From NCBI GenBank assembly GCA_036873135.1, contig JAPTYO010000011.1:15944747-16008746 (forward strand): a stretch of 64,000 nt of DNA, given 5' to 3'. The DNA comes from Clarkia xantiana subsp. parviflora. Taxonomy: Eukaryota; Streptophyta; Magnoliopsida; Myrtales; Onagraceae. The position numbers and the translations under genes are program-made. The notes beneath the pieces were generated by a model. That model saw only the letters and a list, made by a program, of their open reading frames with translations. It was not told the origin of the DNA and searched no databases. How positions within the stretch are numbered: position 1 is the stretch's first letter; every line of letters begins with the position of its first letter. Below, piece after piece: positions 807-64,000 of the stretch.

Positions 807-815
807 TATTATATT

Positions 816-1919
816 GGGTTAATAGGTGTTTTGGTCAGTGATGTTTGACAAGTTTTGGGTTTTGGTCAGTGATGTTTTTTTTTTCCTAGTTTTGGTCTCA
901 TATGTTTGTATACTTTCTAGTATTGGTTTTTCCGTCAGTTTTTCTGTTAACTGAACACGTGAGGGTCACGTGACCCCAAAAAAAAAAAAAAATAAATAAA
1001 TAAAAACTGAAAAGACCAACCTGCCCTTTAGATCTATCATCGTCCCTGTTCCTCTCCCTCTGGTGCCGATGCCCTTTAATAGGCGAAATTCTTTCGTCTT
1101 TTAAGCTGCCGAGCTTGGTTCTCTTTCTAACCCTTTCTTCACCGATAAAGTTACCATCTTTCTGACGCCGCCAAGCTCTGTTCTCCTCTCGAGCACCACG
1201 CTGCTTGCAGTCTTCAGCTGAGACAGGGTCGGCTTCGCGGGAATGCACTGCAACTCCATTAGGAGGACGACAGACCTTCTCCTTGCAATCTATTTCTGTA
1301 TCCAATAGCGCGACGGTGGCGGGAGGAGAAGGAGAACCAGGCACATCTCCGCCGCTCTTGAAGCTCTCAAGTATGTGATCGATTCCTCCGAAGAAATCAT
1401 TCGCCTTCTCGAGGCCTTCCTGATCGGCGCTGTTTCCGGCGCTGAAATTGATGAACTCCTCTTCTAAAGCGTCGCAGGACATGTCCTCACAAGCATCCAG
1501 CCAGTAAGAGGAGTGGGGGAGTTCCTCTGGTACAGAAACCCTAGACGCATCGTCCATTTTCACCTTTGTTCTTCGTAGGCAGCTGCTGGATGGATCTCCT
1601 CCTTGAACGCAGCAGCAGCAACCAATTCACGCGGCGGAGATGGCCCAACTAGAAGAGATTCGGAGAGAAGAAGGTAGTTATGGACAGAGAGAAACACTGA
1701 CTGAGGATGGGCAGGTTGGTCTTTTCAGTTTTTAATTTTTTTTTTTTTTTTTTTTTTGGGGTCACGTGACCCTCACGTGTTCAGTTAACAGAAAAACTGA
1801 CGGAAAAACCAATACCAGAAAGTATACAAACATATGAGACCAAAACTAGGAAAAAAAAAACATCACTGACCAAAACCCAAAACTTGTCAAACATCACTGA
1901 CCAAAACACCTATTAACCC
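816..1919 (-). mobile_element. Pack-MULE carrying a DCL1 5' fragment
   Basis: An 1104-bp element begins GGGTTAATAGGTG and ends CACCTATTAACCC. It is flanked by an exact 9-bp direct repeat TATTATATT at 807-815 and 1920-1928, the target-duplication length typical of Mutator-like elements. The terminal inverted repeats are about 211 bp each (816-1026 and 1709-1919), including matching poly-A/poly-T runs and the block GGGTCACGTGACC. Between them lie 682 bp of GC-richer host-derived sequence with an open reading frame on the minus strand that matches the DCL1 N-terminus. There is no transposase, so the element is non-autonomous. Target duplication, long inverted repeats and captured gene sequence together fit the Pack-MULE definition. 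Confidence 0.92.
898..1557 (-). pseudogene. DCL1: Captured DICER-LIKE 1 N-terminal fragment
   Basis: The ATG at 1557 opens a 219-residue frame. Its first 177 codons (1557-1027) are captured DNA. The residues SYWLDACEDMSCD near the start and NDFFGGIDHILESFKSGG around residue 55-70 are the hallmark blocks of the plant DCL1 N-terminus. After them comes an Arg/Lys/Asp-rich stretch like the DCL1 region ahead of the helicase. About 150 bp upstream of the ATG (to 1708) look like captured 5' UTR. Helicase, PAZ, RNase III and dsRNA-binding domains are all absent, so no dicing activity is expected. After residue 177 the frame runs into the element's inverted repeat and adds about 42 transposon-encoded residues before the stop at 898. 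The captured frame has no stops. The parental DCL1 gene is not in the window. Confidence 0.85.
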
Positions 1920-1928
1920 TATTATATT

Positions 1929-12075: not shown

Positions 12076-12238
12076 ATTATTATTTAGAGCCGTGATAGAC
12101 ATTATGACGATCGGAATGTCACGGTGACAGTTATGTAATAAATCCCAACTTGAATGGCAATTTTATGTTTACACACATTCGGAACTTCTCGTAATGGGGT
12201 TATCGGAATGTGTATCTTATTTGTATTATTATTATTTA

Positions 12239-12771
12239 GGGTTAATAACTAAAAAACTGTCCAAGGTTTATCCTATGTTAAAATTAGGTGTCTGAAGTTT
12301 GAAATGTTAAAATGGACTGTCCCAAGTTTCATTTTTGTTGAAATTTGGTGTCTTTGTGCGTCTTTTCATCTTCATTCCATCATTTTCATCAACCCACCAA
12401 CCCACTCATAATCCATCACTCTTTACTTTTCACAAAATCGTCAAATTTCACCTAAAAATTGAACATTAAAAAAGAAGTTTCTAGAAGAGTGGTGTAGAGC
12501 CATTTTCCAAGGACAATAGAGCGAGATTTACTTGCCCGGATGTGACCAACTTTTTAGGTGACGGTCCCGGCAAGATGACGAGAATGGAGTGTGTATGAGA
12601 GCTTAAATTTGACAGACGGTTTCGTCGGAATTGACTTCTCTAAAGTAATCACACCGATACACTAAATTTCAACAAAAATAAAACTTGGGACAGTCCATTT
12701 TAACATTTCAAAATTCAGACACCTAATTTTAACATAGGGTAAACCTTGGACAGTTTTTTAGTTATTAACCC
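12239..12771. mobile_element. MULE MITE, copy 1
   Basis: A 533-bp element begins GGGTTAATAACTAAAAAACTG and ends with its inverted complement. It has an exact 9-bp target duplication TATTATTTA at 12230-12238 and 12772-12780. The inverted repeats are about 120 bp (GTCCAAGGTTT..., GTGTCTGAAGTTT..., ACTTGGGACAGTCC). No open frame of note is inside. A nearly identical copy sits at 51745-52277. Confidence 0.93.
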
Positions 12772-13048
12772 TATTATTTATAAACATACGAGTATATTTC
12801 AATTCAGATTTTTTATTAATTAAACCGGCTCCGATTCGACCTGATTTTCACTAATTGAACCTTATGTGAACACCTATAAGTGAACTTGCAGGACAAACTC
12901 CTAAATGATGATACTTCTTTCAGGAGACTAATAGGAACGTTTTTATATATTTTTTTGTTTCCAAACTTGACAGCTCCTTTGCAGTTAGACATATCATTCG
13001 GTTCATGCAAATCTAAAAAATCTCATTTGGATACTATAATTAGGTTTA

Positions 13049-20297: not shown

Positions 20298-20743
20298 TGT
20301 AAGTTTTTATAAACCCTAATTGCCAGGATCTTGATCATGCTTTATGTAGATTAAAGTATAGTGATGAATGACTTACCTGGTCTTGATCTCAATTCCTCCG
20401 ATCTTCCTAGACTGTCAATTCGCTTCTCTGTAGAACGGTTCTACTTCTCTCCCTTGTCCATCCTTCTGTCAGAGACCAGTTGATGGAGAACTGCTCTTTC
20501 TCTCTGCGTCAATCACTGGCAGGGAGAGAGGACCGTTTATAATATTAACCCTTTAATCTGATACGTCCATCAAGTAACCAATTGAACGGTCTAGATTAAA
20601 TCATACCATAAAGATATATATTGATATAATATAATATAATATAACACATAATGTATTATATTATTCAATATATTTATATTCCTTAATATTATCTGGCCAC
20701 ATAATTAGAATATATATTGTAACATTAAATATATATTCTTACA
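20298..20743 (-). repeat. LARD 3' LTR
   Basis: 446 bp, TG...CA ends. It differs from the other LTR mainly by one extra 5-bp ATAAT unit in the ATAAT/TATAA run. Confidence 0.93.
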
Positions 20744-23534
20744 TTCTCCCACTTGGCCAGATAATCACATAAGTCTTTCATCTTTATGGAATAACATAAG
20801 GCGCGCGTAAAATCTAATCTTTCCGTTCATCATAATCACTTACATTCAATAATCTGTAAATGCGGGTTATGGCGGTCATACACTTATTTAAGCAGCATAC
20901 TCCCTTCCATATACCACGACAGTTACATCTTATCAAACGTAAGCCTGTAAGTAATATATATAAACACATTAGGGTCCGAGTAAGGCTTTGCATAAGGTTT
21001 TCCCGTTATCATAAACTTTATGTGTACACAATCATAATTAACAGGAAAACATTGGAGTCAGAAACATATCATTGAGCTCAGAGTGTCAAACATCATCATC
21101 ATCAGCTTTACAACTAAGACCCATTATTTACATGCTTCTTTAATGTCATTAGTTGTAAACATTCATTTAAATACATCATTGTCAGCTTGGCCATTATGCT
21201 GACAGACACTCTTGTTTCTGAACTTTCTTCTTAACGACAATAAACTTTCATTCCATAAGTTTGCACCTTTTAATTCTTGTCGTTTTGACGAAGAAATAAC
21301 TGTGGCGTTATTACGATAAATTTTCCAGCGACTTGGTAATGGTGTCGACAACCTCAAGCCCTGAAATAAGTCCCACAGTCCTTAATGCATGATAAAACAT
21401 GCTAAAAACCTTACTTTACATTATTGATAACGACAGATAATTACCACTTTTCTATAATATTGCTCCAACACATAAAATGAACAAATAATTGAAAGTGGAC
21501 TTTCAACCGTCACGATATCCCTTAAATCTGAATCTACACGAACATAAATGCATTCACATGTTCTTGTAGGTGCATTAGGACTTTATTTGCAGAATTCGAG
21601 AATTACTCCCTATATAAGATCAATTCAATGTGAGCTTTCTGAGACAATCCAACTGTAACCGTGACTAGATTAAAATTTTAATTTAATCTTTGTCACGCAA
21701 ATTGTCTCTCACATTAACTTTCATCTTAACTTCAGAGGGAATCATAATGCATAATCATTTAAACGTGAGCAAGAAATAATCAATTATACAGGTAAAATAT
21801 CTACATACTCCCACTAATCTTACAGTTCATACGGTTGTCAAGTCACTTACTAAACCATTCGTGGGAACATTTATTTTATCCTATAAATTGATTTTTTAAA
21901 ATGACCATCCATTAATTGAGAAATATAAACTTCATACATAATATATTGTGGGAATGAAACCGAAAAAGTATTTACTAATATCTGAATCCTACATGTAAAC
22001 CAACTTCCAGAATAACAAATTTTCGTAATGTTATTCTAAATGATTTAACTTTATATCAGATGATTATATTTTTCTTTCTTTATGGAGTATCATGTCTTTC
22101 GAACATTATCCCTTATGTTGAAATTTCCATTCAACTGATGGAACTATATTCTAATCCATGTGAATAATGTATTCATACAGATAGACAGTGTCTATCATTT
22201 ACCATAATATCCTCATCTTATTATTCAGACACTCCCACTAATTTCATTATTCTTAAGATTAACATAACTGGTTTCTACGATTTTCGGACTTCAATTAAGA
22301 AAGTAAGTATTTATACCCTTTGGATCTTTTAATGTTACTCTAGAGTAAACATTTCATTCAAGAATCCATTCTTTAATGTGGATCATAAACATTTACTTTA
22401 CTTTTATTAGACAACCTCAAACATAATGGTGTCTTAACCAAGCTCCCTTCCAACGCACGGATCATTAAGAGGTTGGAACTGCCTTAATGGGATCTCAGAC
22501 TTAACTCATACATCCACAACTTAATGTCATTAATGGTTAAAGAAGACTTACTTGTCTAACTCTTAACTGTAACTTTCAAATTCCGATTATATTTCCCACA
22601 ATACTATTTTCATAAATGTATGACATGTTCTCTTAAGAAGGCTTATTAATGAACTAAAAGTCATATCATACTTCTATACATTTCTCATGAAAGTCACCAC
22701 ACATAAAGACATTATAAGTTTTCACGTTTCTATCTAATTGCTTACTTTCCATCAAGAAAAATCACCCAGCAAACAGATATAGTCATGACATGAATAACAC
22801 TAATATGCTTAAATTCATAAGTGCAAGAATATATACAATTATCCCCCTATTCTTGACACTTATTAATTTTCCGTATAAATAATCATGCAATAGGCGAGAT
22901 ATACGAAATATTGCATTTTATTCATGTATGAAAAACTATTGCACTAACCTTTTAGTAGCACTCCTTTATGCATGGTTGACATGTGACTTTCTTGTTCTTC
23001 ATAACATACGAGCTAACTCAATATCACTTAATGAACACTTTAAAGTGCTCTCATAAATATTGAGTTATCTCTAGTCATCCTTAAGGTCTTTAATCTTGCT
23101 TCATAAATTAGTCAACTCAAACTTCTACAAACTATACAACTCAAAACTTAATGGTTGTAAGTTTGTACATACGAGTGACTTATTACATAATTCGTTCTTT
23201 CATCCACAAAACTTCATAATTTTCTTTATTTGTTGTTTGTGGAATAAACCAAAATTATTCGCATTAACTTAAGATTTACTCTGTTATATCGTGTTTATAA
23301 TTTATGATTTGACTTTCTACTTAAGTTGTGTACCCGTAAGGATACTATTTAATTGTGTTAAGTCAGGATCTAGTAACTTTAGTGGAACCTGACTTACACG
23401 GTTTAGAAAGTCAAACCTATTAAACACAATAACAGAACATACATGCGAATTAACTATAATAGCTGCAAATTACATACTTGCTCATTCATAAAATAAGCTA
23501 ATAAGAATCAGCTAATCATTTAAAGTAAATCATA

Positions 23535-25826: not shown

Positions 25827-26267
25827 TGTAAGTTTTTATAAACCCTAATTGCCAGGATCTTGATCATGCTTTATGTAGATTAAAATATAGTGATGAATGA
25901 CTTACCTGGTCTTGATCTCAATTCCTCCGATCTTCCTAGACTGTCAATTCGCTTCTCTGTAGAACGGTTCTACTTCTCTCCCTTGTCCATCCTTCTGTCA
26001 GAGACCAGTTGATGGAGAACTGCTCTTTCTCTCTGCGTCAATCACTGGCAGGGAGAGAGGACCGTTTATAATATTAACCCTTTAATCTGGTACGTCCATC
26101 AAGTAACCAATTGAACGGTCTAGATTAAATCATACCATAAAGATATATATTGATATAATATAATATAACACATAATGTATTATATTATTCAATATATTTA
26201 TATTCCTTAATATTATCTGGCCACATAATTAGAATATATATTGTAACATTAAATATATATTCTTACA
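25827..26267 (-). repeat. LARD 5' LTR
   Basis: 441 bp; a two-base spacer separates it from the tRNA-Met primer-binding site at 25812-25824. Confidence 0.93.
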
Positions 26268-26517
26268 TTGACTGATCATGTTCGTGTATTATATCATCTT
26301 CGGAGTCCATTTGATCATGACATCTATCATCCTTACAGCATCTACAATAATATTACATAATATTACTTAAATATAGGTTTAACATATTTTTTTATGTAAA
26401 TTATAAAAAAAACACTATACAATAGTTTTACATAGCTTTCCTTAAAAGTGGGATTCACTTATTTTTACATAACATATTCCTTAAATTTAAGGATTGCACT
26501 ATGTATTACATAACCAA

Positions 26518-36859: not shown

Positions 36860-37169
36860 TAACTTAATAGGGTTAAAAAGTCATTTGGTGCCGTATATTT
36901 GGCCAATGTTGATTTTTGGTGCCATATGTTTTTTTTTAGACTTTTAGTGTCATATGTTTGCATTTTGTAGACTTTTGATGCATCTGTTAGTCAACAGTTA
37001 AGTTTCACCGTTAAATACTTTTAATTTGCTCAATTTAGTCCTCCAATTTATATTTCTAACTTTTAATTTTTACAATTTAGCCCCCAAAGATTATAAATCG
37101 AACCTAGATGGAAATTGACCGAGTCAGGGTCCGACCCACGGCTGGGTCGGACCCTGGCTAGGTTATCCA

Positions 37170-37947
37170 TAGGGGTGAAATCGGACAGGTCGGTCCGGTT
37201 TTTCACTTAATTCGGTCGGAGACCATTATATTCGGTCTGGTTTTTTTTTTTTTTAAAAAAACCAACCAAAAAACCGTTTAACAAAAAATAAATCATCCAT
37301 AAATAATACGGTTTTTCGGTTTGGTTTTTCGGATTAAACCGAATATCCGAAAATAATTTTTAAATAAACAAAAATCACATACCATAATCTTATATATGAC
37401 TACGAGATGCCTTCGAACATTAGAAAGGAAGGAAGACTGCAAGAGTTGCCACTTGCCATGAACCCTAAATCCTTAAGTTGCCATGATTGATGCTGGAACC
37501 ATACTGGTCTCGTAGCCTCTTTTGCCTAATTTGCTTTATGTCTGTCAAAGACTCACTCAAAACTCAAAAGGATGGAGACTAGCCAAGCCAGAGTAACTAA
37601 TTGGAGATATCTGGCCAAAAAATAATTAATTGGAGACGGGCTTTTAATGATGATATTAACTGTAAGACAGCACATTAATGATGGAAAGACCCTTCGTTAC
37701 ATTCAAATTTCAAATTAGCATTAATTAAGAATACTTAAATAATAATTAATATAATATACTAATATATTTCGGTCGGTTCGGTCTCTATGATTTTTTTAGT
37801 ATGATGACCGAACCAAACCGAAAATTCGAACTATACTTAAAAAAACCGTCCATACCGAACCGTATAATAACGGTTCGGTTTTTTCGGTCCGTACCGGACC
37901 GGTTTTTGTCGATTTTTCGGTCCAGCCGGTTTTTTGTTTCAGTCCTA
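37170..37947. mobile_element. hAT MITE
   Basis: TAGGGGTGAAAT at the left and GTTTCAGTCCTA at the right form inverted ends. The 8-bp flanks GTTATCCA (37162-37169) and GTTACCCA (37948-37955) differ at one base. The interior is rich in CGGTTCGGTTTTTC repeats in both orientations. Confidence 0.8.
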
Positions 37948-38031
37948 GTTACCCAGACCTGGGCGACCCTAGCCAGGGTCCGACCCATGGCTGGGTCTTA
38001 CTCTGGCTTGGGTCTCCCAGGTCTAGGTAAC

Positions 38032-38689
38032 TGATAGAACGAGCTCGTCCGGGGTCCGATCTTGGCAGCCTAATTGTAGAGTTGCGTTCCTTCTATCTTC
38101 CTAGCAATGTCGATCCTTGTCCAGTGCCTTGCCTACTGCACAAAGGGCAATACCAGAGAGGAGAAAGAGGGGTGTCTCTGGCGAACCCTCTCCGATGCCT
38201 AAGTCAGACCGTAATTCTAGAGAGATAAAATGTAGAGAGAAGTCAGAGCTCCGGTGTCTCAATCCGAGATCAAGTTTTAAATGAAGGACCTAGGCCCCTA
38301 TTTATAGAGTTTTGGATCCAGGCACCGGGGGGCCTACATTTTGAGTGGGGCCCGCATAGAGATTAGGAGAGTGGTCAGGTATACGCGCACCCCGGGTATC
38401 GATACATGGGGGTCGGGGGCCGACGCGGGACGCGTCGGCCTCATTGTCACCAGAAAAGTCCGGTTTCTGTGCAACGACAACCAGACATGTCCGGTTGCAC
38501 AAGCAGCCAGACATGTCCGGTTGCTCCGGACGAATCTGGTACAACCGAACAAGCTCGTCCAGTTGCTCCGGAATTATCCGTAGTAACCTGAATAGCGCGT
38601 ACCCTTGGAAAAAAAAAGGACTTACATCGAGGTCGGCGGGGCGACCGTGTTTAAGCCTTAGTGAGGTCCAATCGGGTGTATATCCATCA
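38032..38689 (-). repeat. 3' LTR of the Tat-like element
   Basis: 658 bp, starting TGATAGAACGAGCTCG and ending TATATCCATCA. It carries extra AGACATGTCCGGTTGC repeats (about 38480-38560) that the other LTR lacks. A TATA-like CTATAAATAGGGG reads on the minus strand near 38310. Confidence 0.88.
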
Positions 38690-39499
38690 TTTGCCTCCGA
38701 GTCAAGAATTGGTTTACCGTTTCTTGACTCTACTTTTTTTAGAAGGAATAGACGCCCGATTGTACCTCGCCTGTTGGATTACCTTTGAATATTCATATGG
38801 AGCGGTCGTCTCTTCCGTTTTAGGGTATGCGACCTAAATTGTTGTTGAACTCATGGAAAAATTCATAAATAATTAGTCATAAACGTGTTGTCATGTGGTA
38901 ACGTGTATCCGACCAGTGACATGCTGTCATGATATAATGATTTATTACAATTGAACATGGTGACCAATGTAATGAATATGAATGACTAACACTATAGTAT
39001 GCTATGCACACATTCAGGTAATGTCAGGTAGTGACGATGTCAATGTCAACGGAAGTAGTCATGTTGGATGATAATACAATACACGAGTACCATTGTAATA
39101 GTGGTGATGCAAACGTGTGTACACATGTAATTGAACAATTTGCTTAAGTGTTGTGCTATACGTGTTCTAATATATATAAATGCAATCATGGTTTTAAAAA
39201 ATTATATCTATCATAATACACTATTAATGGTATGAATTAAAATGTGACTATCATTTTCATATGTATGCTCTAGTGTAATAATCACTAAGTAAGGGCAGTA
39301 ATAGCAATGCCGTAATTAATTTGTATGTAAAACCCTATTGCATACTTATAAAAGGGAAATAAGATGTCACCATTCTAGGTCACCAACACCATCTACTTTA
39401 CTAATAGTTAGAGCATCATACATTTGTATTTCTTAGCCATCAAGAAACCATTTTTCTTGATTTTGGAAGCATGAATCAACCATGGTTTGATGGTGGTTT

Positions 39500-40130
39500 G
39501 GTTAGAGATGGCCCGATTCTGACCGGTTTAGGTTCTGGGTCGAACCAGGTGTCCACGGCGGAGCTCCAGCGCGGCGGTGGTTAGGGTTTTGCCGCGGCTG
39601 AGTTGCGGAGTGAACAATTCGTGGCGTTTCCGGCAGGATTTCGTCGCGGGCTGGCCGAGGATCGACAGAGGACTTCAAGGGCGGCCTGTTGGTGGTCGTG
39701 GTGGCCCCTATCCGTGGCCAATCGAGCTTCGGCGAAGGGTTTTTCGCGGCGGAGCCAAACTCAGCCGGAGGAGGGCTCCTTTCGTGGCGGGCTTCTGCGA
39801 CTGGGATCGCGTCGTCAAGGCGATTCCGGCGACCTATTATTAGACTAGCGAGGCCGACGCGCGACGGCGGTGGCGACGAAGTGAATTGCGTGGCCAAAAT
39901 CAGCCGCATGAGGCGTCTTTTCCAGGCGGCGTTAGTGCGACTGGAGTCGTGACGGCGAGGCGACTTCGGTAAGGTAGGTCTCGTCCGGTGGTGACAACCT
40001 TCCACGATGACGAAGGCGGCGACGGTGGCTGCAGCGGTGGCTACGGTGTTTTCCGGCGAGGGCTGGTTTTCTCTACTGAACCGGTCTGGTTCTGCCGAGC
40101 CGGTTTTGGGATCGAACCAGCTTGTTTTAA
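39500..40130. other. GC-rich block of unknown origin
   Basis: Base composition shifts sharply to GC-rich, with long open frames on both strands (39502-40005 minus; 39577-39843 and 39689-39952 plus). None shows a domain I recognise. Repeated CGGCG/GGCGG words explain the openness. It could be a captured host exon or element-specific sequence. Confidence 0.4.
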
Positions 40131-41108
40131 GGTCTAATTTTCTAACCCCTTTTATCTTTCAGCCATAATTTGAAGAAACACTTGCGATGTATTGTTATGT
40201 AAAAATAAAATGATTGTATGTAATTGGAAAGAGGTTACCTCAACTCCGATTTTTAAAAATTTATGATTTTTTGAAAATTTGTAACTTGGCTGAGTAGGAA
40301 TGTCGTTCCACCCATTCGGTATATAATCATGTTGATCGTATAGTCGAAACATGTACTCATTGGAAAAAATGTTATGTGAAATTTTTTCCCCGAAGTGGAC
40401 TAGTTAATACCTTAAATGCGAGGTGTTGGGTCTCGCGTTGACGGCGTTGTGCGCCATGCTCGCATTGTTGCCGTATACTCCTAAAATTGGCATAGGGAGT
40501 TATCCTTGATGACTTGTTGTGTATCATTGTGTTGGACATGGGGTGTCTTCCCACATGTCTGATATGTATCATAGTGAATGATGTAAGGTTGCCCCCCTAG
40601 GGTAGGCGGAGTGATCATAACATGGTGAATTGAGTGGCAGTCCCTATATCATGCGTTGTCTCCACCTAGTAGGTGTAGTAACCGCTACTGGTGTTGATCT
40701 CTTCGCATACACTACACTACTGCCTTTGTGTTGTTATACTGCCCCCGAGGTGACATTGTCACCCTTGTCGTTGCATTTGTTGTCCCCATAGTAGACTCTT
40801 TTGTTGTTTACCTCTGTAGGGTGTCTACCCTTATTTATGCCACACCTTCTAGAGTGAGTTCGCTGAGTTGCCCCCAAAGTAGGGGTAATAGCCGCTCAAT
40901 ACTTTTATTAATTCATCTCTCCCCTATTGTAGGCTATTAGCTCTACTTGAGTCTATAAAGTGTAGTATACACTCACTCTTAGTTGCATACATAGTTGCAT
41001 ACACATAGTAGCATACATAGGGCAAGTGTAGACACTTACAAATGATTGTATACACCCGGCCACTAGTAAACCTAGCATAGTCCTAGTTGGTGAGCCTAGT
41101 CTCACTTA

Positions 41109-41118
41109 GTATATATAG
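41109..41118 (+). promoter_or_regulatory. TATA box of the antisense gene
   Basis: GTATATATAG lies about 340 bp ahead of the ATG at 41456 on the strand opposite to gag. Confidence 0.45.
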
Positions 41119-41455
41119 TGCACTCTTTAGCTTGTAATCCCTAATCATCAATGAAGTATGATTCAAGCTTATAGAGTCCTTGAGGCGTCGTCTCTGTAGC
41201 GGACGTTGGATTGCCCTTACGCTGACTGGAGTCACTCTCGCCATCATGCGTGAATGTTCTTCTCGTAAAGGTTCTTTATTTCCTGCTCGTTATCTAGTTT
41301 CTGAGTCGAGTGAGGATTGGGATTGTTCTCATGAGACTGTATCTGTGTCGGGGTTGGTACTTGTTACCGAATCTGAGTTAAACATGTAAGTTGGGTATGT
41401 TCCCTCTGATCATGAGTCTCACGAAGAATCTTCTTCCGTTGCGGTTTCAGCCCGT

Positions 41456-43755
41456 ATGTCTTCTTCCGAGGAGGGAAGTCCCGAAGAAAGCTCTGGATAT
41501 GCATCCGAGGTGGATCATCATGGACGAAAATTCATTGCAAACGAACTTCTGCTAAAGGACTATATGACTATCCTTCGTCTAGCCGGCTTGACTGATTCTG
41601 ATCGTGTTGTGTATCCCTTCGAGCAGTACACGAAGTCTAAGTTTACGAGCGTTACTCTTCCGCCGCCTGGGATGTCGACACTGTACACCATCCAGGTGCG
41701 TAACGGCCTGTGCTTTCCGTATTGCCCGGATCTCTTAGAGCTTTGCGAGTTCTATGGGGTGTCTCCCCTTGACTTCGCACCTCACGCCATCAGGTGTTGG
41801 GTTGGATTTCGCATTTTATGTCAGCGCCAAGGCTGCAGCTACTCCCTCAATGTCTTCAGGTGCTTCTACCGCATTCAGTATAAAGAAAAAGCTGGGGTGT
41901 ACACTGCGGTAGTACGATATCCTAATTTGTCCAAGAAGAAGGGTGAGTATATCTGGGATATTGATTTCCGCTTTGTTACCTCCATTGACCGTTCCCGTAA
42001 CCAGTGGAAGAGTCGTTATCTATTCATCAAGGATTGCCAGGTTACTTGGCATATTCATGTTAGTGGTATCAAGGATGGTATTCCTACCTCATCCAGTCTT
42101 TCGTCGTCGGAGCGAGCGACTATCAGAGCTATCTATGCTGCCCATCAGACCCGAAGCTTTGCGCCTATAGTGTCGTATGCTGATGATGATCTTCGCCAAG
42201 CAGGCATATTAATTGACACTCCTTTGGTATGCATGGTAATTTTTCTCATTGTTATATATTTATGTTTCCTTGTTGTAGGTTTGTTTGCTGACGTGAAACC
42301 ACAGTAAAAGGTGGAACGTTTGTCTTAAGGTGGTACTGGGAGTGTTAGGGGTTTCCTTCTTCCTCTATTGCTCGGAAGCCGTCGAAGGTTTCTAAGTCAC
42401 CCAAGGCGGCGGGTATGTGTGTTCATGTATGATTATCGTAGTTGCTACTATTATTGCCATGGTTGTTCATGCTGGTTTCTTCTTATCTTTCAAGTCATGG
42501 TGACGCCTCTGTTCCTGCTGACGGAGGTTTCGGTTTCTCCTCTGGTCGAAAGAGGAAAGTGATTGATCTGGACGATCATGTTCCCACAGCTTCCCGTGAC
42601 AAAGGGAAATGTGTGGTTGATACAGCTCCTGTCGATCCTCCGCCTATTGCGCCTGTCGAGACGGTACCTGACGACCCTATGTCCTCGGCTGGTCAGCAGG
42701 GCGATGTCCATGCTCTTATTCAAGAGATTGCTTCCTATGATGATGGATTGTCCAGCCTTTCTGGTCTTGGTCTGGAGACACAACTTCAAGCTATGTATTA
42801 TTTTCGTTGATTTCCTATCTTGACGCTATATATTTATTACTTTTCCAAATTCAGCTCGCATTCGTCACCCTATGCTGTCCCGAGAAGATCTGGTCCAACC
42901 TCTTGATGGTGACATTATGGGCTTCGAGTGAATACCATTTTCTTCTATGAACAACTATCACTTTGATAAGTGGTCATCCCTTTCGTCCCCCGAAGTTGGT
43001 GTACGCGTGTTGAATGTCGTGGTACCTCCAGGTGACCGCATGGCCTTGCCCGTCACCTCTAGGTCTGGCTTTGAGTTTGTTCGCGATGCCATGCCTCGCT
43101 ATGCCCCCGTAAGTATGTTTCCTTCACTTGGTTGTTGTCATTATATTCTTTTGTCTAACTCTTGTGAATCTTGTATAGGTCGTCTCCGATATGGTCACTA
43201 TGGGATCTTTCATTATCCAGCTGACCGAGCAGTTGATGCCCTGAAGTCTAATGTGAAGGAGCTTGAGGAGACTGTATGTATCATGAAGAAGAGAGCTTCT
43301 ACCTTTGACTCATCCGAGCTTGTTTACCAGAAGCGCCTTGCATTCTTTGAAGCCGACAGCAGACTTCGGAAGGAAAAGGAAGAAGAGGCGCGGCTGCGTA
43401 CGAGCATCTGGCTCAGGCCCTCTTGAAGAATACTGAGGAGGCGACCGCTCAGGGAGTTGCTCAGTATAAGGCGTCTCCTGAATTCGAGGCAGATGCCAAG
43501 GCGAAGTGCCATGACATCCTTACGGCCTATGGTGAGGATCTTTCTGTGAAGATATATGGGATCGACCCCTCCTTTGATTTCAGCAGGCTCGGGGACTTTG
43601 TGGGATTTGCCTCTACTCATATATCAACATTATTTGGCGAGGACTCTGCCCCTGTTGGTGAAGAATATCTTGTTTCCCCTGCGACGCTTTCTGGTAGTTC
43701 TTTAGAGGCTATGCTATTTGGGGATGACGGCGACGGTGGCACTACCGCTCCCTGA
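41456..43755 (+). pseudogene. Antisense gene with Transposase_28 (gypsy-type) domain
   Basis: The first 283-codon frame (41456-42307) holds the PF04195-type domain: TIQVRNGLCFPYCPDLLELCEFYGVSPLDFAPHAI in sense, then WVGFRILCQRQGCSYS and WKSRYLFIKDC. It is the same domain as the antisense ORF at 28485-30235. A short GT...AG interruption (about 42237-42279) falls at the same place as in that copy. Further frames (42442-42810, 42947-43426, 43423-43755) give a Pro/Asp-rich linker and a charged coiled-coil (KSNVKELEETVCIMKKRA), which would need splicing to join. Function is unknown; a retroelement accessory protein is the best guess. Confidence 0.65.
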
Positions 43756-44264
43756 TTGAGGAACAACTATCTTATCTTAATTGTTTATAGCCACTCTAGT
43801 CTATCTATGCTTATCATGTTCCTTTGCTTGGAAACATTCATTTTTGGGATTTAGGCTTGTATGCCATCCATCAATCTTTCGCATTAATCTGCATGAGACA
43901 TGTGTAAATATATGGTTATATAATCATGAGTAGGATTTCGTACCGTTGTTGATAAGAAAGCCCTTGTAATTGATAGGTTGTGTGTGTATCCACATCCAAT
44001 AGCGCCCTTTCATGCTTGAAGGGAAGCACATGTATGCGAACTTGAGTCACTTATCCAACATATGTCACCGCATTGATGTCGCATTGTTCTTGGGGTGTTA
44101 TCGTTGTTGTCATGCCGGTGGAGTGTCGGTTTTGACATTCATCGCATTCAATCACAATGTTACCTTTAGTAGCGAGTTCATCCATGTCCCTCTTGGTCAC
44201 CGCCAAGGAATGACGTAGCATATATAGTATTTCATATACTTGGTGGATGATCCATTGCTTGTCG

Positions 44265-44600
44265 ATGCCTCGACGTTGTTTGCAAGACGCTACTTGCGCT
44301 GTGTTGACACGTTTTATGACCGCGTATTCGATGCCTCGAGATAACGTTGTTGGCAAAACGCTACTTGCTAATTTGATGCGTTTTAACCACTTGCTTGATG
44401 CCTCGGGGTAGTGTTATAGCAAGACGTTTCTTGCTTTGTTTGGTACGTTTTAAGCCGCTTACTTAATGCCTTGAGATAGCGTTGTGGCAAGACTCTACTT
44501 GCAATCCTAGTAAACTATTGTTAGCGCGTTTTACCGCCCTTGGTAGCCCAAGATGTGGCGTTGGTGCAAAACGATACTTGCGGTAGTGCGATGTGTTTTT
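44265..44600. repeat. Diverged tandem repeat in the Tat-like element
   Basis: About five units of 70-90 bp share GATGCCTCGAGATAGCGTTG, GGCAAGACGCTACTTGC and a following GCGTTTTA word. Confidence 0.7.
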
Positions 44601-45179
44601 TTATTGTATGACCGTTACTTGGCTTGTCCGAAGGAAGGTCGGGACGGTATCGGCTCCGCCGTAGTTGTGTATCTGTTACTTGATTTTTCAAGCTTACGTT
44701 TTGGCGAGGTGCGACTCACATGGTATTTAGCGTTTTAGGGCGTGTAGGCGTCACTCCGTTATTGTGGGGTTTGCCTCTTCATCGGTATAGGCAGCGGTCG
44801 CGGAAACATAACTATCCGTGGTAGTGCCACTGTTACTCAAAGAGACTGGACATAGTGACATTCAAAATATCTCATTAGAGTTATCTTCTAAGGAATGGAG
44901 GCAATCACATCACATAAGTGTCTGTGACGCCGTAGAATTTGAGATGATACCTGGTTTTCACTTTCCAGTTACCTGTTGCTATCATATCAGCATGACCTTA
45001 GCGCTCAAGTATTATGGTCGTGATATTGGTCTCTGCCAGTCAAGCCACTTTGAATCAGTACCCTAAGGTACAGCGATCGCGGCCTTGGTGTTGGTTCCAA
45101 GTGCGACGCCTTTAAGTAGTTCCCTAAGGCACAACTATCATGGAATTGGTAGTAATTCCAACCATGATGCTTTGAATAA

Positions 45180-45995
45180 GGGTCAGTAACCTGGGAGAGG
45201 TCTGAAGATTGGCCCTTGTGAATTTGAGAGGTATGAAGATTGAAATGGTGATAACAGAGGTCTGAAGTTTCGACTTGTAGATAATAGAGGTCTCCGTTAG
45301 TTTTTTCCGTTAAAACTGACGAAAGTTGGTCATGTGCATGGCATGTGACCAGAAATAAAATAAAATTCCAAAAATACCCTTCTTGCAACTCAACTGTTTG
45401 AATGAAAAGACGAAAATGCCCTTAAGGCCACCGCCCAACTCCGGCGACCACCACTCACAGCTCCGGCGACCGCCACCAAACTCCGGCGACCACAACCCGA
45501 CTCCGACGACCATCACACAACTTCGGCAACCACAACCGCGGTCCCGATTGGGCCCAATCGGAGCCACAGAGCTCCGATTTGGAGCTCTGTGGCCCCAAAT
45601 CGGGGCTGGTGGCTCCGATTTGGGCCCAATCGGGGCCGTGGTGGCGGTCGTCGAAGTTGGGTGGCGGTCGTCGGAGTTGTGAGTGGTGGTCGCCGGAGTT
45701 GGGTGGTGGCCGGCCGGAGCCGTGGTGGTGGCCGGAGTTGGGTTAGGTTTAAATTATGGACAGGGGTATTTTTGTCATTTCATCTTTGTATTAATTAAAC
45801 TTTTTATTAATTCAAATATTACAAAAGGGTATATTTGACATTTCATGCGGTTCTGTTAAATTTGACAGAAAATTTGGACATAAAACCTAAAAATCACAAA
45901 ATCGAAACTTCAGACCTCGGTTATCACCATTTCAATCTTCAGACCTCTCAAATTCATAAGGGCCAATCTTCAGACCTCTCCCAGGTTATTGACCA
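45180..45995. mobile_element. MULE MITE inside the Tat-like element
   Basis: An 816-bp element begins GGGTCAGTAACCTGGGAGAGG and ends with its inverted complement. It has an exact 9-bp target duplication TTTGAATAA at 45171-45179 and 45996-46004. The interior has a GC-rich region of CTCCGGCGACCACCAC repeats and palindromes around GGGCCCAATCGG. Related sequence lies at 3700-4114. Confidence 0.9.
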
Positions 45996-46249
45996 TTTGA
46001 ATAATATTGTTGGGTGATCAGCCCAAGACAGCTTGAGGTTGTGTGTAACATTGATATATGTGTGTGGCGTTGTAATGTCATTCAAGAGACGAAACCCGTC
46101 GCTTTAAGGACATTTATAAACATAACCATTCAAAATATATACAATACGAAGTCCAAAGGTCTTCGCTTTAGGATTGATCTTTGAAGATAGACATGCATAA
46201 AACTAAAGATAGTTTTTTCCACTAGGGAAATTCATTCATAAAATAAAAC

Positions 46250-47084
46250 TTAAGGATACTTAAAAAGATACGAAGACATGGTATCTTGTTGGTGCAGCCT
46301 TATTCCCATGGGAGGCACTATGAACTCATTCAGCCTTCCTTGTCGTACTAGACACTCCAATTCAATTTGCAAGACGTTACAGTCATTTGTATGATGGCGC
46401 GTTCCGTCCAGCTTGGTGGTAGCACGTACCATAGGTGCTCATTATGGCGCTCTTCTAAGCTCATTATTAGTTGGGTGCCGAGTCCGATGCTTGATTCCTG
46501 GCTTATCATTGCATCTTCTCCATCCGGGGGGTTACTTTTGTGCATTTCTTCCATCTCATCTTTATAGGTCCAAATTCCAATTGCCATTGCCTCTGGTTCC
46601 TCCTTTTTCATGGCTTCTTCTAGCCAAATCTTGAGTTCTCTCATTGTTGATATTAGCATTATTTTATGCCACTCCTCCGGGTCTTGTTTGAGCAGACCTT
46701 TCAAATTCCTGAAGAACATTCGAATGAACTCTCCCTTTTTTCATGGAGGGAGGTAGCATTCTTTGCGAGGCGTTTGAAGTAACTCCTTGTTGTCTCGTCT
46801 GGCATGTGGTGGATCTCCCCTGTATGGTGGATTCCCATCATGTCTGTTGAGTTGATTTTTTGCTGCCTCCAAGAACCACTTGGGGAATCCATGCTTGTAT
46901 TGTCTTGATGCTCAGACGATTCAAAACTTGTTTTGTCTTGGTGTTCCGATGATTCCGACACTCTTTTGTTACTTTCCAGTGTTGGAGCCATGTTTGTCAT
47001 CATGTCGCTGTCCGGCGTTGTTAGCAACAACTTCTCTCCCAAACTACCCATCTCTTCACTGCATTCCACTTTTTCCTTATCCAT
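46250..47084 (-). pseudogene. Second gag-like fragment
   Basis: Frames here read RSYFKRLAKNATSLHEK and EEWHKIMLISTMRELKIWLEEA, resembling the end of a Tat gag core, then HHTNDCNVLQIELECLVRQGRLNEFI, a zinc-knuckle type HHTxxC with its usual follow-up, in two frames. It lies downstream of the protease, so gag sequence appears twice in the element. Confidence 0.5.
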
Positions 47085-47716
47085 GAGGACTTCTTGTTCT
47101 TGACTTGAGTCATCACCATAGCAATGCTAAGGCCACGACGTGCCTTCCTCTTCATTGCATTAACATAGCATTGTCTTGATGTTGACTGGTCTCCGAGCAC
47201 TTCACCTATTCTGTGTGGAGTAATGGACTTCAGCTTTTGGTGTGCTGTCGATGGTACCATGATACTAGGGTTGATTGTTGTCCTTCCAATTATAGCATTG
47301 TAGGCACCCAAGTGCTCTGCTACTACAAAGTTCACATTGAGTAGCAATTGCTTCCATTCTTGGCATAGTCGCATAGGTAACATTATCATCCCCAATGGGT
47401 AGCTAGATGTTCCCGAAAAACTGAATAACGGGAAATCCACTGGAGTTAAATTGGTCAGCTTCTTCCCTAGATCTTTAATCACATCAAGATGGATGATGTC
47501 TGCTGAGCTTCCTCCATCTACTATGATTCTTTTCACAACGAACCCATTGATCTCAGCTGTTATAACCAGGGCATCGTCATGAGGGAACACTAATATCCTT
47601 CTTTGAAAATTGAATGACCATGTCATCCTCTTCTCTTGGACGTTTGCCCCACATTGGCATGTTTTGGGGTTGTGAAGCATATACTTCTCTTGCATTTGAT
47701 GTTTGCTCCCCTGCAC
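47021..47716 (-). pseudogene. Gypsy aspartic protease
   Basis: The active-site motif is IVDGGSSADI (usual form D-T/S-G-S-S-A), after FPHDDALVITAEINGFVVKR in pieces, followed by YNAIIGRTTIN, the second conserved protease block. This is the plant Tat/Gypsy gag-protease layout. The frame ends without reverse transcriptase. Upstream (47890-47950) a knuckle YCNFHEARGHHTNQC is readable. A Gly in place of Thr/Ser at the second motif position may weaken activity. Confidence 0.8.
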
Positions 47717-48051
47717 CTATTCCTCCATGTATAACATTTATAGTACCCCTCTTTTGGGGAGGGTTGTTGTCATCGACCTTTACTTTGGCTTTGTCAGTGG
47801 CGGACAACCTGGGGGGTGTAGACCTTTCTCTCTTGTTCCCAATGTTGACATAATGCTTGAGGTGCCCTTGCTAGATCTCTCTATCTATCCATTCTCTTAA
47901 GTCATTACACTGGTTCGTGTGGTGACCTCGTGCTTCGTGAAAATTGCAATACTTATCAGGGTTTGGTCCCATTTGAATGTCTGCCTTCTTCGGGGGTGGT
48001 GTACATATTCCCGTTTCTTTCATTTCCCTGAGGATGATAGTCGGTGGTGCA

Positions 48052-48265
48052 TTTAAAAAAACAAACTTGATAGCGTTAACACTATCTGGCCTCCTTGTAT
48101 CATTGAAGTTTCTAGCCTTTGAGGCAGGTATCCATTCCTTCTGCCTTTGATTGGGTGATTTAAAAAAACAAACTTGATAGCGTTAACACTATCTGGCCTC
48201 CTTATATCATTGAAGTTTCTAGTCTTTGAGGCAGGTATCCATTCCTTCTGCCTTTGATTGGGTGG
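48052..48265. repeat. 107-bp tandem duplication in gag
   Basis: Two near-identical units share AACTTGATAGCGTTAACAC and GGCAGGTATCCATTCCTTC. The unit length is not a multiple of three, so the duplication itself breaks the reading frame. Confidence 0.9.
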
Positions 48266-49694
48266 CGCCTGCTGCTGCTGCTGCCTACCCTTGTTGGCTT
48301 TGTTAGCTTCATTCTTGTTTGCATTCGCTGCCACTTTGATACGTCGTGCAGACTTAACCCTTTCAAGGTCAATGTGAGCCTTAACCCGTGCTGCCAACTT
48401 TTCGACTGTAGTGACCATATCAAGTGCCATGCTATCCGCCAGGGATGCACCCCAGCGTCCTGAGTTTTTAATGAAAGCCCTTATGATCTCTCCATCAGTG
48501 AAATCAACGTTTATTTCTGCCACATTCTGATTGAAGCGAGTATAGTAACTTTCTAATGTTTCTCGGTCCTCCTGCTTGACATCGTCAATCGCAGTCCAAT
48601 TCTTGTGGAGTTGTCTCTCGCCCAATTCTTGACGCTTTTGGGAGACTGAAGAACCAGTGTGCTGCCGGTCCCATCAGTGTTGTAGAAAATGACAATGCCA
48701 TCAATCTCTCATCACTACTCTGACCCATAAATGATTACTCGTGTTGTTGCACATATTCTATAGGGTCACCCTTTCCATTATACTTCTCAATCTTTGCAGG
48801 GGACACACCTTCTGGGAAACACATGTCTATAAGTTCTTGGACTAGGGGGTGTGATGCATTGTCACTTAGACTGAATAGAGCTTTACTTTTTGACTCCCTC
48901 ATCTTTCTTGCTATTAACTCTTCGATCTCTTCCATTGTCGTGGGAACCCTTGGAGGTTCGGCACTTACCTCATAGTTACCTGAATTTGTACTCTGCCTGG
49001 TAGGGCTGGTAGTGCGGACTTTGCTGATACTGAAACTCATAAGGTGATGAGGGATGTTGTCTCCATTGTTGAGGCATTGGTATGTGCTCAAAGCCTTGTC
49101 TTTCAAATTGCCCCCTGGTGCATGATGTTGAAAATTCTGTGGCGGGGGTGGCATTGTATGTTGTCTTGTACTGTCATGCACTGGCGGCTGTCCATGTGCT
49201 CGAGGTGTTGGTACCTGTTCCCGGGAGAGGTTCAGCGATGGTTGTCTTGCACAAGGGGTTGGAATTTGTCGCGCTACCTCATGGTTAAACGGTTGCCTTG
49301 TCGAGTTGTTGGGATGATGTCCCTCACTTTGAGCTGTCCTTGGAATGTCCCTTGGTGGGGCTTGGTCAGTCGGAGCCACTGGTGGTGGTTCATATCCTCT
49401 AGCTCTCATTGCCTCACGGTATACTATCAATTCATCAATGGTTGACATGAATCCTTGTGCCACTGGAGGTTCACCTTGGGAGAACATCAAATGTCCTGAT
49501 GCGGCGTATGTATGCCTATTGAACATTGACATATCATACGATGGGATTGTGTTGCGAGGCATCCCAAATGGTTGATCTTGTGGCGGCATGCCATAAGGAA
49601 AACGTTGAGTGGGGTTCTTATGGTAAGTCCTCATGGAATGCGAGGTAGCACTAGTCGCAATGTTCTTACTTGGGTGGCGTCGTATTGACGACAT
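48053..49694 (-). pseudogene. Tat-like gag
   Basis: The N-terminal frame (48735-49694) is Pro/Gln-rich and ends FPEGVSPAKIEKYNGKGDP, the usual entry to the retrotransposon gag domain. The next frame (from 48625) continues QEDRETLESYYTRFNQNVAE and TTVEKLAARVKAHIDLE. A break lies between them near 48630-48735. A 107-bp tandem duplication (48052-48158, 48159-48265) shifts the frame again at its C-terminal side. Confidence 0.8.
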
Positions 49695-50000
49695 AGATGC
49701 ATCAGATGATTCTTCTTGTTATACCAGCACCGGAGGTACCTGTTGAGCATTAGGAACTGGTGGTTCCTGTTGCGGCTCTTGGGCGGGTGGTATCTCTTCA
49801 GGAGCGGACATTGGTGGCACTTCCTGATGAACTTGTATAGACGGTTCCACTACAAGCCTCGAACCCCTTGGTACCTTGTTACTTGGACGTCTTGGTGGTC
49901 TCGAACACTCGGGAGTAGATTCGTTACCTACAGAACCACTCGTTGTCATTTCTCTTGTCACTGCCAGGCTTTTAGTTCAGATCACACAGTACGGCTCCAA

Positions 50001-50552
50001 TGAAGGAACGAGCTCGTCCGGGGTCCGATCTTGGCGCCCTAAACGTCGAGTTGTGTTCCTTCTATCTTCCTAGCAATGTCGATCCTTATCCCGTGTCTTG
50101 CCTACCTGCACAAAGGGAATGCCAGAGAGGAGGGGGTGTCTCTGGCGAATCCTCTCTGATTCCTAAGTCAGACCGTAATTCTAAAGAGATAAAATGTAGA
50201 GAGAAGTCAGAGCTCCGGTGTCTCAATCCGATATTAAGTTGTAAATGAAGGAGCTAGGCCCCTATTTATAGAGTTTTAGATCCAGGCACCGGAGGGATCC
50301 ACATTTTGAGTGGGGCCCGCACAGAGATTAGGAGAGTAGTCGGGTATACCCGCGCCCCGTGTATCGATACCCGGGGTCGGGGTCGGGGGCCGACGCGGGA
50401 CGAGTTGGCCTCATTGTTACCGGACAAGTCGGATTGCTCCAGACGAATCCTGGAATAGCGCGTACCCTTGGAAATAAAAGGACTTACCTTGAGGTCGGCG
50501 GGAGCAACCGTGTTTAAGTCTTAGCGATGTCCAATCCAGTGTACATCCATCA
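50001..50552 (-). repeat. 5' LTR of the Tat-like element
   Basis: 552 bp, starting TGAAGGAACGAGCTCG and ending TACATCCATCA, followed directly by the GTAAC duplication. Confidence 0.88.
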
Positions 50553-50837
50553 GTAACCTAGCCAGGGTACGACCCAGTTAATTTCGACCTAGGTACGATT
50601 TCTAATATTTGGGGGTTAAATTGTAAAAATTAAAAGTTAGGAATATAAATTGAAGGACTAAATTGAACAAAATAAAAGTACTTAACGGTCAAACTTAACT
50701 GTTAACTAACAGATGCACCATAAGCCTACAAAATGCAAACATATGACACCAAAAACCTGCAAAATAAAACATAGGACACCAAAAGCCAACATTGGTCAAA
50801 CATACGACACCAAAAGACCCTTTAACCCTAACTTATA

Positions 50838-51729: not shown

Positions 51730-51744
51730 CCTACTTTTTAACAA

Positions 51745-52277
51745 GGGTTAATAACTAAAAAACTGTCCAAGGTTTACCCTATGTTAAAATTAGGTGTCTG
51801 AAGTTTAAAATGTTAAAATGGACTGTCCCAAGTTTCATTTTTGTTAAAATTTGGTGTCTTTGTGCGTCTTTTCATCTTCATTCCATCATTTTCATCAACC
51901 CACCAACCCACTCATAATCCATCACTCTTTACTTTTCACAAAATCGTCAAATTTTACCTAAAAATTGAACATTAAAAAAAAAGTTTCTAAAAGAGTGGTG
52001 TAGAGCCATTTTCCAAGGACAATAGAGCGAGATTTACTTGCCCGGATGTGACCAAATTTTTAGGTGACGGTCCCGGCAAGATGACGAGAAGGGAGTGTGT
52101 ATGAGAGCTCGAATTTGACAGACGGTTTCGTCGGAATTGACTTCTCTAAAGTAATCACACCGAGACACCAAATTTCAACAAAAATGAAACTTGGGACAGT
52201 CCATTTTAACATTTCAAACTTCAGACACCTAATTTTAACATAGTGTAAACCTTGGACAGTTTATTAGTTATTAACCC
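51745..52277. mobile_element. MULE MITE, copy 2
   Basis: A 533-bp element nearly identical to 12239-12771, with its own exact 9-bp target duplication TTTTAACAA (51736-51744, 52278-52286). It lies about 280 bp beyond the PPR stop codon. Confidence 0.94.
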
Positions 52278-52556
52278 TTTTAACAATCAACAAGATGGGA
52301 AATCACAGAAAACTAAAACCAAATACTACTATAAAATCTGAAAGCAAGCATACTCAATAATATAAACACTCACCTCTGGTAGCTGCCACGTAAACTACTG
52401 AGATTCTAGGTTCCAACTTGTTGCTTCCAAATAATCTGCCCTGTAGGAATATCTGCTACTGCTTCAGAAACAGTCTTTCGAGTCAAGTACTAACCAAGCA
52501 AGCATGTAAAGCAGCGGATGCAAATTTTTTTCATCGTAATCAGTAAGGTTATAGTG

Positions 52557-55101: not shown

Positions 55102-55215
55102 TACAAACACGGACATGGGCCGAATTAACAACAACAATTCAACAAAAAAAAACTAGGCTCAAAACAAGCACACAAGCAAACAGCTTGATAAACCCATATA
55201 ATATGGGCTTCAATA
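55102..55215 (-). repeat. Truncated Copia 3' LTR
   Basis: It matches 60186-60297 of the 5' LTR (ACAAACACGGACATGGGCCG to GGGCTTCAATA); the rest is lost. Confidence 0.85.
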
Positions 55216-55222
55216 CTCCCCA

Positions 55223-56935
55223 TCAAGCTGATTGCACTTCAACTCCCAATTCAGCCTCTAACCCCCCCTGTTTCCTGAAGACATTCAACATACCAAGCTT
55301 ATTAGATAGCAAAAAATGTTGTTGCTTAGGCAATATCTTGGTAAAAATGTCAGCAAGCTGACTGTCTGTCCTGATGTGCCCAAGCTGTACAACACCCTGC
55401 AATAACTTATCTCTAATAAGATGGCAGTCTATCTCAATATGTTTAGTACGTTCATGAAACACAGGGTTAGTAGCAATTTTTACTGCAGCCTCATTGTCAC
55501 AGTAAATCATAGTAGGAGCTTTCTGGCCAAAACCTAACTCAGAAAACAGACCCCTCAACCAAATGATCTCCTTTAACAGATCTGCGATACTCCTATACTC
55601 AGATTCTGCAGAGCTCTTAGAAACAGTATCATGTTTCTTAACCTTCCATGATATTACAGAATTACCCAACATAACACAGTAACCAGATATGGACCTTCTT
55701 GTTTCAATACAAGTTGCCCAATCTGAATCACAATATCCAACAAAATCAGTAGCAGATTCAGAACTCAATAATATACCTTTTCCAGGTTCTAACTTAACAT
55801 ACCTCACAACCCTTAAAATAGCTTCCCAATGGGATTGATTTGGATCCTGCATATATTGACTTAAATGTCTCACAGCAAAAGAAATATCAGGTCGAGTAAT
55901 AGTCAAATAGAGCAGTTTCCCTATCAGCTTTCTATAGCTAGTAGCATCATTTAAGGGAGGATCATCTTGATTGACTTGCAAATGCTTATCATAAAAACGA
56001 CTAGTCAGCTTTGCATTCAACTCCATAGGAGTTTTAGCCACTCTGCCACCAGCTAAACCAACAGAAGAGATAAGTTCTAAAGCATATTTCCTCTGACACA
56101 TCAAAATGCCTTTATCAGATCTGATGATTTCTATGCCAAGAAAATATTTCATTTCACTCAAATCCTTGATTTTAAAACTAGATTCCAAAACAGTTTTAAG
56201 CTCATCAATAAATTCATGACTATTCCCAGTAATCATAAGATCATCAACATAGACCAGTAAAATAACCAACTTTTCACCAACAGACTTTGTAAAAAGAGAA
56301 TAGTCATGCCTGGATTGACTGTAACCTGCTTTGACAAGGGAGTCAGAAAGTTTTAGATTCCACTGTCTACTAGCATGTTTTAAACCATAAAGTGATTTGC
56401 GCAGTCGACAAACCAATCCCTGACCCCCCTGACTAGCAAATCCATCAGGTAAACTCATATATACCTCCTCATTTAAATCACCTTGTAAAAAAACATTGAA
56501 AACAACCATCTGATAAAGGGGCCAGTTATGTATAGATGCAAGGGATAAAATAGCACGAATAGTATTCATTTTAACCACGGGTGAAAATGTTTCAAAATAA
56601 TCAATCCCATGTTTTTGTTTAAAACCCTTAGCAACCAACCTAGCCTTATATCTTTCTAATGTGCCATCAGACCTAAACTTCAGTTTCTAAACCCATTTAC
56701 AGCCAATAGGGACCTTACCTTTAGGCAACTGAACTACATCCCAAGTTCCATTTTCTTGCAGGGCTGTGACCTCTTCATTCATTGCCTGCACCCAATTAGG
56801 ATCTAAGGAAGCCTCCTTATAAGAATCTGGTTCAACCAATCTTGAGAAAGATGTTAGAAAACATTTATAATCATGAGACAATCTATCATAAGAGATATAA
56901 TTCCCAATAGGGTGAGAAGTAGTGGATCCTCCCAT
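55223..56935 (-). pseudogene. Copia reverse transcriptase and RNase H
   Basis: The frame 55223-56638 reads MVAKGFKQKHGIDYFETFSP, FLQGDLNEEVYMSLPDGF, the catalytic YVDDLMITGNS, then RNase H DWATCIETRRSISGY, KSSAESEYRSIADLLKEI and HIRTDSQLADIFTK. The start of the domain (56687-56935, ending VPIGCKWV) is cut off by a stop just after CKWV. Apart from that the catalytic residues are intact. Confidence 0.92.
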
Positions 56936-57183
56936 AATGTAATCACTAGACTAAATTGGGGGTTTCACTGTTCTACCTGTTCTAGTAACCTGCATATTAG
57001 GAACAACTGGGGCAGCATCAGAGTTAATAGGCTCTGACTCATCATCTGCTTGAACAGGGGATCTTACAGAATCAACAGAATCATCTGAATTGGAACTATC
57101 AAGTAAATTGATGGAGTCAATCTGATGAACATCATCATTAGAAGAAGAGGGATTGTTACTGTGATCAAAAACTTCAGAATCAT

Positions 57184-59739: not shown

Positions 59740-59958
59740 CGCTCAGAGGTAGGTAACAAGGAACGATCAAAATTCGCAAACAGATGATCTGGAGGTATCC
59801 AGGACGACGAACAGAAAGAATCGCAAGAGGCACGAAACAAATCGTCTGAGGAAGAAGACGAATCGTCTCGTGAAGAAACACCAGGAAAAGAAAAACGCAG
59901 CGGAGGTCTCAAGATCAAAAACCGAACGGATGAAGGACATCCATTAGCTCTGATACCA

Positions 59959-60297
59959 TGTAAGATTTGGTGGCACTCTCAGAAACCCTAACCCTAATTG
60001 AAGAAGAACATCGAAAGAGAAAGAACAGCAAACGTCGGGTTTCTCAGGTTAAGGTTCCTTCATTTGGCTTAACCTCCACCCAATAACCTAAAAACTATAT
60101 ATAAGGTTCATACAAAACAGAAATCGCAAAAAAGACCCCAAAGAAAATAAAAGAAGGAACAAGGTCCACAAACAATACAGGCAAATACAAACACGGACAT
60201 GGGCCGAATTAACAACAACAATTCAACAAAAAAAATAGGCCCAAAACAAGCACACAAGCAAACAGCTTGACAAACCCATATAACATGGGCTTCAATA
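59959..60297 (-). repeat. Copia 5' LTR
   Basis: 339 bp; on the minus strand it runs from TATTGAAGCCCATG to CCAAATCTTACA. TATTG appears to be a changed TGTTG, shared with the truncated LTR. Confidence 0.85.
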
Positions 60298-61441: not shown

Positions 61442-61455
61442 TATTGGAAAGAAAA

Positions 61456-63720: not shown

Positions 63721-63779
63721 TAAAATAAACTACTCCCGCTCTGCTGTAGTTCTCACAGTCGCTCCAGCTCCCGCGGTGC

Positions 63780-63957: not shown

Positions 63958-64000
63958 GTAATTTTCACCCCATCCCCTATCTATGGTTTTCACTGAATGT

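Follow-up and report, generated by a model that had tools for sequence, protein, structure and literature searches.

A Pack-MULE carrying the 5′ end of DICER-LIKE 1 in a Myrtales genome

Introduction

Gene-capturing Pack-MULEs are a well-known kind of transposable element, reportedly described by Jiang et al. in 2004, and they favor the 5′ ends of genes as donors. In maize, Mu killer, an inverted duplicate of MuDR, silences MuDR. DICER-LIKE 1 (DCL1), the gene for the main microRNA-making enzyme of the plant, is controlled by miR162.

Pack-MULEs are described in the available parts of PMC4858842 and PMC8903248, the first of which also reports a GC preference of MULEs and the insertion of Pack-MULEs near the 5′ ends of genes. 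According to the accessible portion of a review (PMC13317346), captured genes bring the silencing of the element into conflict with the protection of essential donors. No report of a DCL1-bearing Pack-MULE was found in the titles and abstract openings of open-licence papers. DCL1 capture was not the subject of PMC10004981 or PMC4772531, as far as their available parts extend, and no word starting with "dcl" or "dicer" occurred in the available part of PMC13317346. The element type is known, and DCL1 is a notable, unusual cargo.

Here, we analyzed a locus in a 64,000-nt stretch of Clarkia xantiana subsp. parviflora DNA (C11:15944747-16008746; hereafter, the window) and searched the corresponding genome assembly of 695.6 Mb in 59 contigs. 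An earlier note on the same DNA had interpreted the locus as a Pack-MULE that captured the 5′ end of DCL1.

Results

Window positions 816-1919 form a 1,104-bp Mutator-like element (Table 1). The 211-bp inverted repeats and the exact 9-bp target duplication described in the earlier note were both confirmed, with 98.1% identity over 211 aligned positions in the former and TATTATATT on both sides of the element in the latter. When the two 416-bp flanks were compared, 12 of the 166,464 possible position pairs had an identical 9-mer, the target site duplication (TSD) counted among them; chance therefore does not explain a duplication located precisely at the element ends. Inside the terminal inverted repeats (TIRs), the element consists solely of the DCL1 piece plus 4 bp of filler and has no transposase of its own. 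On the left side, the family TIR extends past 1026 to about 1029/1030, running up to ...CTGCCCTTTA and joining DCL1 with one base in common. On the right side, ...CTGCCC is followed by the filler and then by DCL1. The DCL1 capture stood, while the limits of 1027-1708 given for it earlier did not: the true piece is narrower, because 1027-1029 belong to the family TIR and 1705-1708 are filler. Every feature tested was found, and by these sequence features, the element is a non-autonomous Mutator-like element, or Pack-MULE. An Rfam scan of the window returned nothing at the gathering score.

Table 1. Coordinates of the Pack-MULE and its parts within the window
Feature	Position	Strand	Basis
Left target site duplication, TATTATATT	807-815		Exact match to 1920-1928
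Left TIR, 211 bp	816-1026	+	98.1% to right arm; 97-98% to both TIRs of the C10 element
Open frame, 219 aa	898-1557	-	DCL1 residues 1-176, then TIR to stop
Captured DCL1 piece, 675 bp	1030-1704	-	669/675 identical to C2:1613831-1614505
Captured sequence upstream of DCL1 ATG (5′ leader, possibly beyond)	1558-1704	-	Alignment to host gene
Filler, 4 bp (ATCC on minus strand)	1705-1708		In neither parent gene nor family TIR there
Right TIR, 211 bp	1709-1919	-	98.1% to left arm; 99-100% to TIRs of the C10 element
Right target site duplication, TATTATATT	1920-1928		Exact match to 807-815

To place the captured piece, we searched the genome with the interior alone. All four first-look candidates were scored and gave four places, namely C2:1613831-1614505 at 99% and one element each on C11, C27, and C13. 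These are four different contigs, each with one copy and none with an inverted pair. The C2 locus is the parent: a complete DCL1 occupies C2:1603022-1614358 on the minus strand, where tblastn placed residues 1-1927 of Punica DCL1 in order. Against this gene, the interior aligned without gaps, and the captured content comprises exon 1 codons 1-176 together with the 147 bp preceding the ATG. Among the best 24 of 306 candidates from a search of the genome with Punica DCL1 (E of 1e-10 or better), the DCL1 N-terminus appeared only at the C2 locus and in the elements on C11 and C27; the C13 element, a known carrier of the piece, was missing from these matches. The other matches among these 24 covered residues 1520-1828 at 39-58% identity and probably represent other Dicer or RNase III genes, and no second DCL1 that could have been the donor was present among them.

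The genome-wide count therefore amounts to DCL1 plus three elements, in line with the interpretation in the earlier note. DCL1 was the only locus hit besides the sister elements, and it lies on a contig other than that of the window. An alternative is that no transposon captured anything and that the locus instead belongs to a DCL1 gene, arose as a retrocopy, or is an assembly artifact. The captured piece is intronless, as a retrocopy would be, but it lies within exon 1 of the parent. We consider this alternative exceedingly improbable, and a DCL1 gene part, retrocopy, or pseudogene was rejected given the complete gene on another contig and the TIRs and TSDs that flank the piece at three loci. 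Because the piece is wholly within exon 1, capture from DNA and capture from RNA are indistinguishable.

The piece differs from its parent at six bases. Five of these differences are coding, with three synonymous changes and two replacements (Q84L and G127R), and the sixth is upstream of the ATG. The resulting dN of 0.005 vs. dS of 0.027 on the captured fragment comes from five coding changes, which are too few to use, and alignment with the Punica, Trapa, Rhodamnia, and Melastoma proteins was too gappy at the differences to polarise them. If 7e-9 to 1.3e-8 mutations are assumed per site and year, divergence from DCL1 corresponds roughly to 0.64-0.34 My. The GC content of the captured piece was 0.523 vs. 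0.401 for the gene body, ranking 347 among the 13,825 segments of 675 bp in the DCL1 locus. This high GC content fits the preference reported for MULEs in the available part of PMC4858842.

The minus-strand frame has 221 codons from a GTG and 219 from the ATG at 1557. As claimed previously, it contains the DCL1 blocks SYWLDACED and NDFFGGIDHIL. When its first 180 aa were compared with sequences of solved structures, Arabidopsis DCL1 (PDB 7eld) was the only match up to an E of 10, at E 5.6e-13, and a Pfam search of this 180-aa frame found no family. Among 122 proteins, the captured peptide scored best in local alignment with the DCL1 proteins of Trapa incisa (311) and Punica granatum (308), both Lythraceae within Myrtales, followed by a next score of 224; by these scores, the host probably belongs to Myrtales. 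In a protein search with Punica DCL1, Trapa came directly after Punica among the best 120 of 262 proteins.

Such a frame could conceivably be translated as a fusion, giving a short DCL1 N-terminal protein that would compete with DCL1 for partners or nuclear import. From the original ATG, which is preceded by 147 bp of captured upstream sequence, the frame is open for 219 aa in the C11 element and 185 aa in the C27 element, and three of the five coding changes are synonymous. However, a copy of this young age would be expected to retain an open frame, the ATG is missing from the C13 element, and the TIR supplies three sense-strand ATGs ahead of that of DCL1. We judge a competing fusion protein to be very improbable.

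To describe the spread of the element, we compared the three insertions that bear the DCL1 piece. Those on C11, C27, and C13 are flanked by exact 9-bp TSDs (TATTATATT on C11, and TTTTCTTTT and TAAAATGTA at the other two) that differ in sequence from one another. The C27 interior is identical to the window interior over 675 bases. In the C13 copy, a stretch that includes the ATG (query positions 625-846) is missing, and the remaining pieces of 410 and 43 bases match at 100%. Identical shared interiors combined with separate TSDs indicate a single capture followed by recent spread, and because the shared interiors of all three elements are identical, this spread is probably younger than the capture. 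The three insertions further suggest that the element has been mobile as a unit.

A genome search for the TIR family covered the best 40 of 1,371 first-look candidates, and the family is larger than these. Exact 9-bp TSDs were present at eight of the nine family elements tested, the three DCL1-bearing ones among them, and the TSD of the remaining element (C1:13658997-13659877) agreed at 7 of 9 positions. Two long elements, on C10 (6.35 kb) and C16 (6.98 kb), share TIRs with the window element, with 97-100% similarity in the case of C10. Both encode PF03108 (MuDR DNA-binding), accompanied by PF10551 (MULE transposase) on C10 and by PF04434 (SWIM) on C16. Two sister elements (C2:32386078-32387141 and C1:25138437-25139495) are 98% alike, each with exact 9-bp TSDs. 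The one on C2 matched successive parts of the PF00067 (cytochrome P450) profile at E 5.6e-4, 6.6e-4, and 0.044, all weak and below the curated cut-off. These P450-like matches make repeated capture by the family probable, so that gene capture by these TIRs was probably not a single accident.

At least 17 further arm pairs, lying 444-552 bp apart from outside to outside and with TIRs 75-86% alike to the family, form a MITE-like branch (e.g., C4:24108516-24109047, C2:38218587-38219122, and C1:50997488-50998019). None of these arm pairs contains the DCL1 piece.

These relatives bear on the idea that the cargo acts as camouflage, such that silencing aimed at the DCL1 piece would extend to DCL1 itself at a cost to the plant, leaving the element protected. 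A trade-off of this kind has been proposed for captured genes in general in the available parts of PMC13317346 and PMC10004981, and the element did multiply after capture. Still, three copies are modest, the sister element with P450-like pieces also has at least two copies, and the family arm pairs without the DCL1 piece give no sign that this cargo helps. We judge camouflage to be decidedly unlikely.

The window contains several other repeats. At 36870-50828, two inverted repeats of ~260 bp lie ~14 kb apart. Their outer 95 bp share 72-74% similarity with the TIR of the Pack-MULE, and they have a near-exact target duplication (TAACTTAATA / TAACTTATA). The structure is probably a related but older MULE in which an LTR retrotransposon, marked by direct repeats at 38032-38411 and 50001-50376, is nested. 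At 61456-61504, the TIR family of the Pack-MULE is represented by a single 49-bp end (90% identity), for which no partner arm was found in 61301-64000; from around 61965 onward there are repeats containing words similar to ACCGACGAAA. Positions 1-256 contain two 81-bp arms in inverted orientation, separated by 94 bp and 89% complementary; the structure is MITE-like, or the end of such an element, and is cut by the window edge. Another element is present in two copies (12229-12773 and 51735-52286; 97% over 300 bp) with 122-129-bp inverted arms 293 bp apart. Direct repeats at 20298-20745 and 25827-26269 are 99-100% alike and 5.5 kb apart, and resemble the two LTRs of a very young retrotransposon. 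Finally, the terminal repeat pieces of a Copia-type retrotransposon at 55146-60297 are 94% alike and enclose RVT_2, rve, and gag domains.

Lastly, we considered what the captured piece could mean for small RNAs and DCL1 regulation, the earlier note having suggested that the element could, if transcribed, give small RNAs against DCL1 or against itself. In the predicted fold of a read-through transcript, the two TIRs are the only segments paired with one another (207-208 of 211 pairs; MFE of -581 kcal/mol for one strand and -591 kcal/mol for the other), placing the DCL1 piece in the loop. One possible reading is a functional siRNA source, in which element transcripts, started at TIR promoters or arising by read-through, would form dsRNA across the DCL1 piece and give siRNAs that repress DCL1 through cleavage of its mRNA or methylation of its exon 1, adding a transposon arm to the DCL1 feedback. 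Perfect matches to DCL1 make up 529 of the 655 21-mers and 508 of the 652 24-mers in the piece, and each TIR contains two CACGTG G-box words that make transcription from either end conceivable. In the accessible portion of PMC13317346, gene pieces carried by Helitrons, Pack-MULEs, and Sireviruses of maize are described as siRNA reservoirs against donor genes. By contrast, dsRNA over a piece situated in the loop would need antisense transcription or an RNA-dependent polymerase, and the piece forms no inverted repeat of itself, being single at each of its four places. Moreover, silencing an essential donor would be selected against, as the same portion of that review argues. We consider a functional siRNA source unlikely. 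Equally doubtful is a transposon-DCL1 loop, in which small RNAs over the captured piece would tie transposon silencing to the DCL1 level; if true, this would be an intragenomic conflict whose donor gene is part of the silencing machinery.

The miR162 target sequence had no match in the element at up to four mismatches. In the parent DCL1, its first 12 bases are intact, where the Arabidopsis tblastn piece ends, and its second half was not located in that gene.

Discussion

The joint best explanation, to which we assign a probability of about 90%, is a Pack-MULE with one DCL1 capture, a younger spread, and a passive passenger as cargo. The TIRs, TSDs, copies, parent gene, and related transposase-bearing elements together uphold the original proposal of a Pack-MULE with the DCL1 5′ end. 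We propose that the piece was captured once, some hundreds of thousands of years ago, possibly during repair at the inner TIR ends, and that the later copies are younger. The element would have been moved in trans by the transposase of its family. Small RNAs, if any, would derive mainly from the 211-bp TIR hairpin, with RNA-directed DNA methylation of the element. The DCL1 piece itself is most likely a passive passenger without a strong effect on DCL1, a view we hold as the default rather than as a result. Speaking against it, the 219-aa frame is still open and dN < dS could hint at constraint, on five coding changes only.

If the piece is silent, this is one more Pack-MULE. In this case, the donor is itself a gene for a small-RNA enzyme. 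The event is young and clean, with one capture, three insertions, and six diagnostic bases, and a conflict between silencing the transposon and preserving its donor gene is therefore directly testable here.

Several known systems provide points of comparison. Like the captured-gene siRNA reservoirs of maize, as presented in the available part of PMC13317346, the element is a transposon-borne gene piece with long perfect identity to its donor; unlike them, it is known from sequence alone, and its donor is a small-RNA enzyme. It resembles Mu killer in that both derive from Mutator and can fold into a long hairpin, but here only the TIRs pair, and the DCL1 piece is single in the loop. As in miR162 control, the DCL1 level would be under small-RNA feedback, whereas the captured piece is exon 1 only, and the element has no match to the miR162 site at up to four mismatches. 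With the Pack-MULEs themselves, the element shares its non-autonomous Mutator-like nature, long TIRs, 9-bp TSD, GC-rich gene piece, and spread after capture. It differs from those described in that its donor is DCL1, a component of the silencing machinery, and in that its host is a eudicot of the Myrtales rather than rice or maize.
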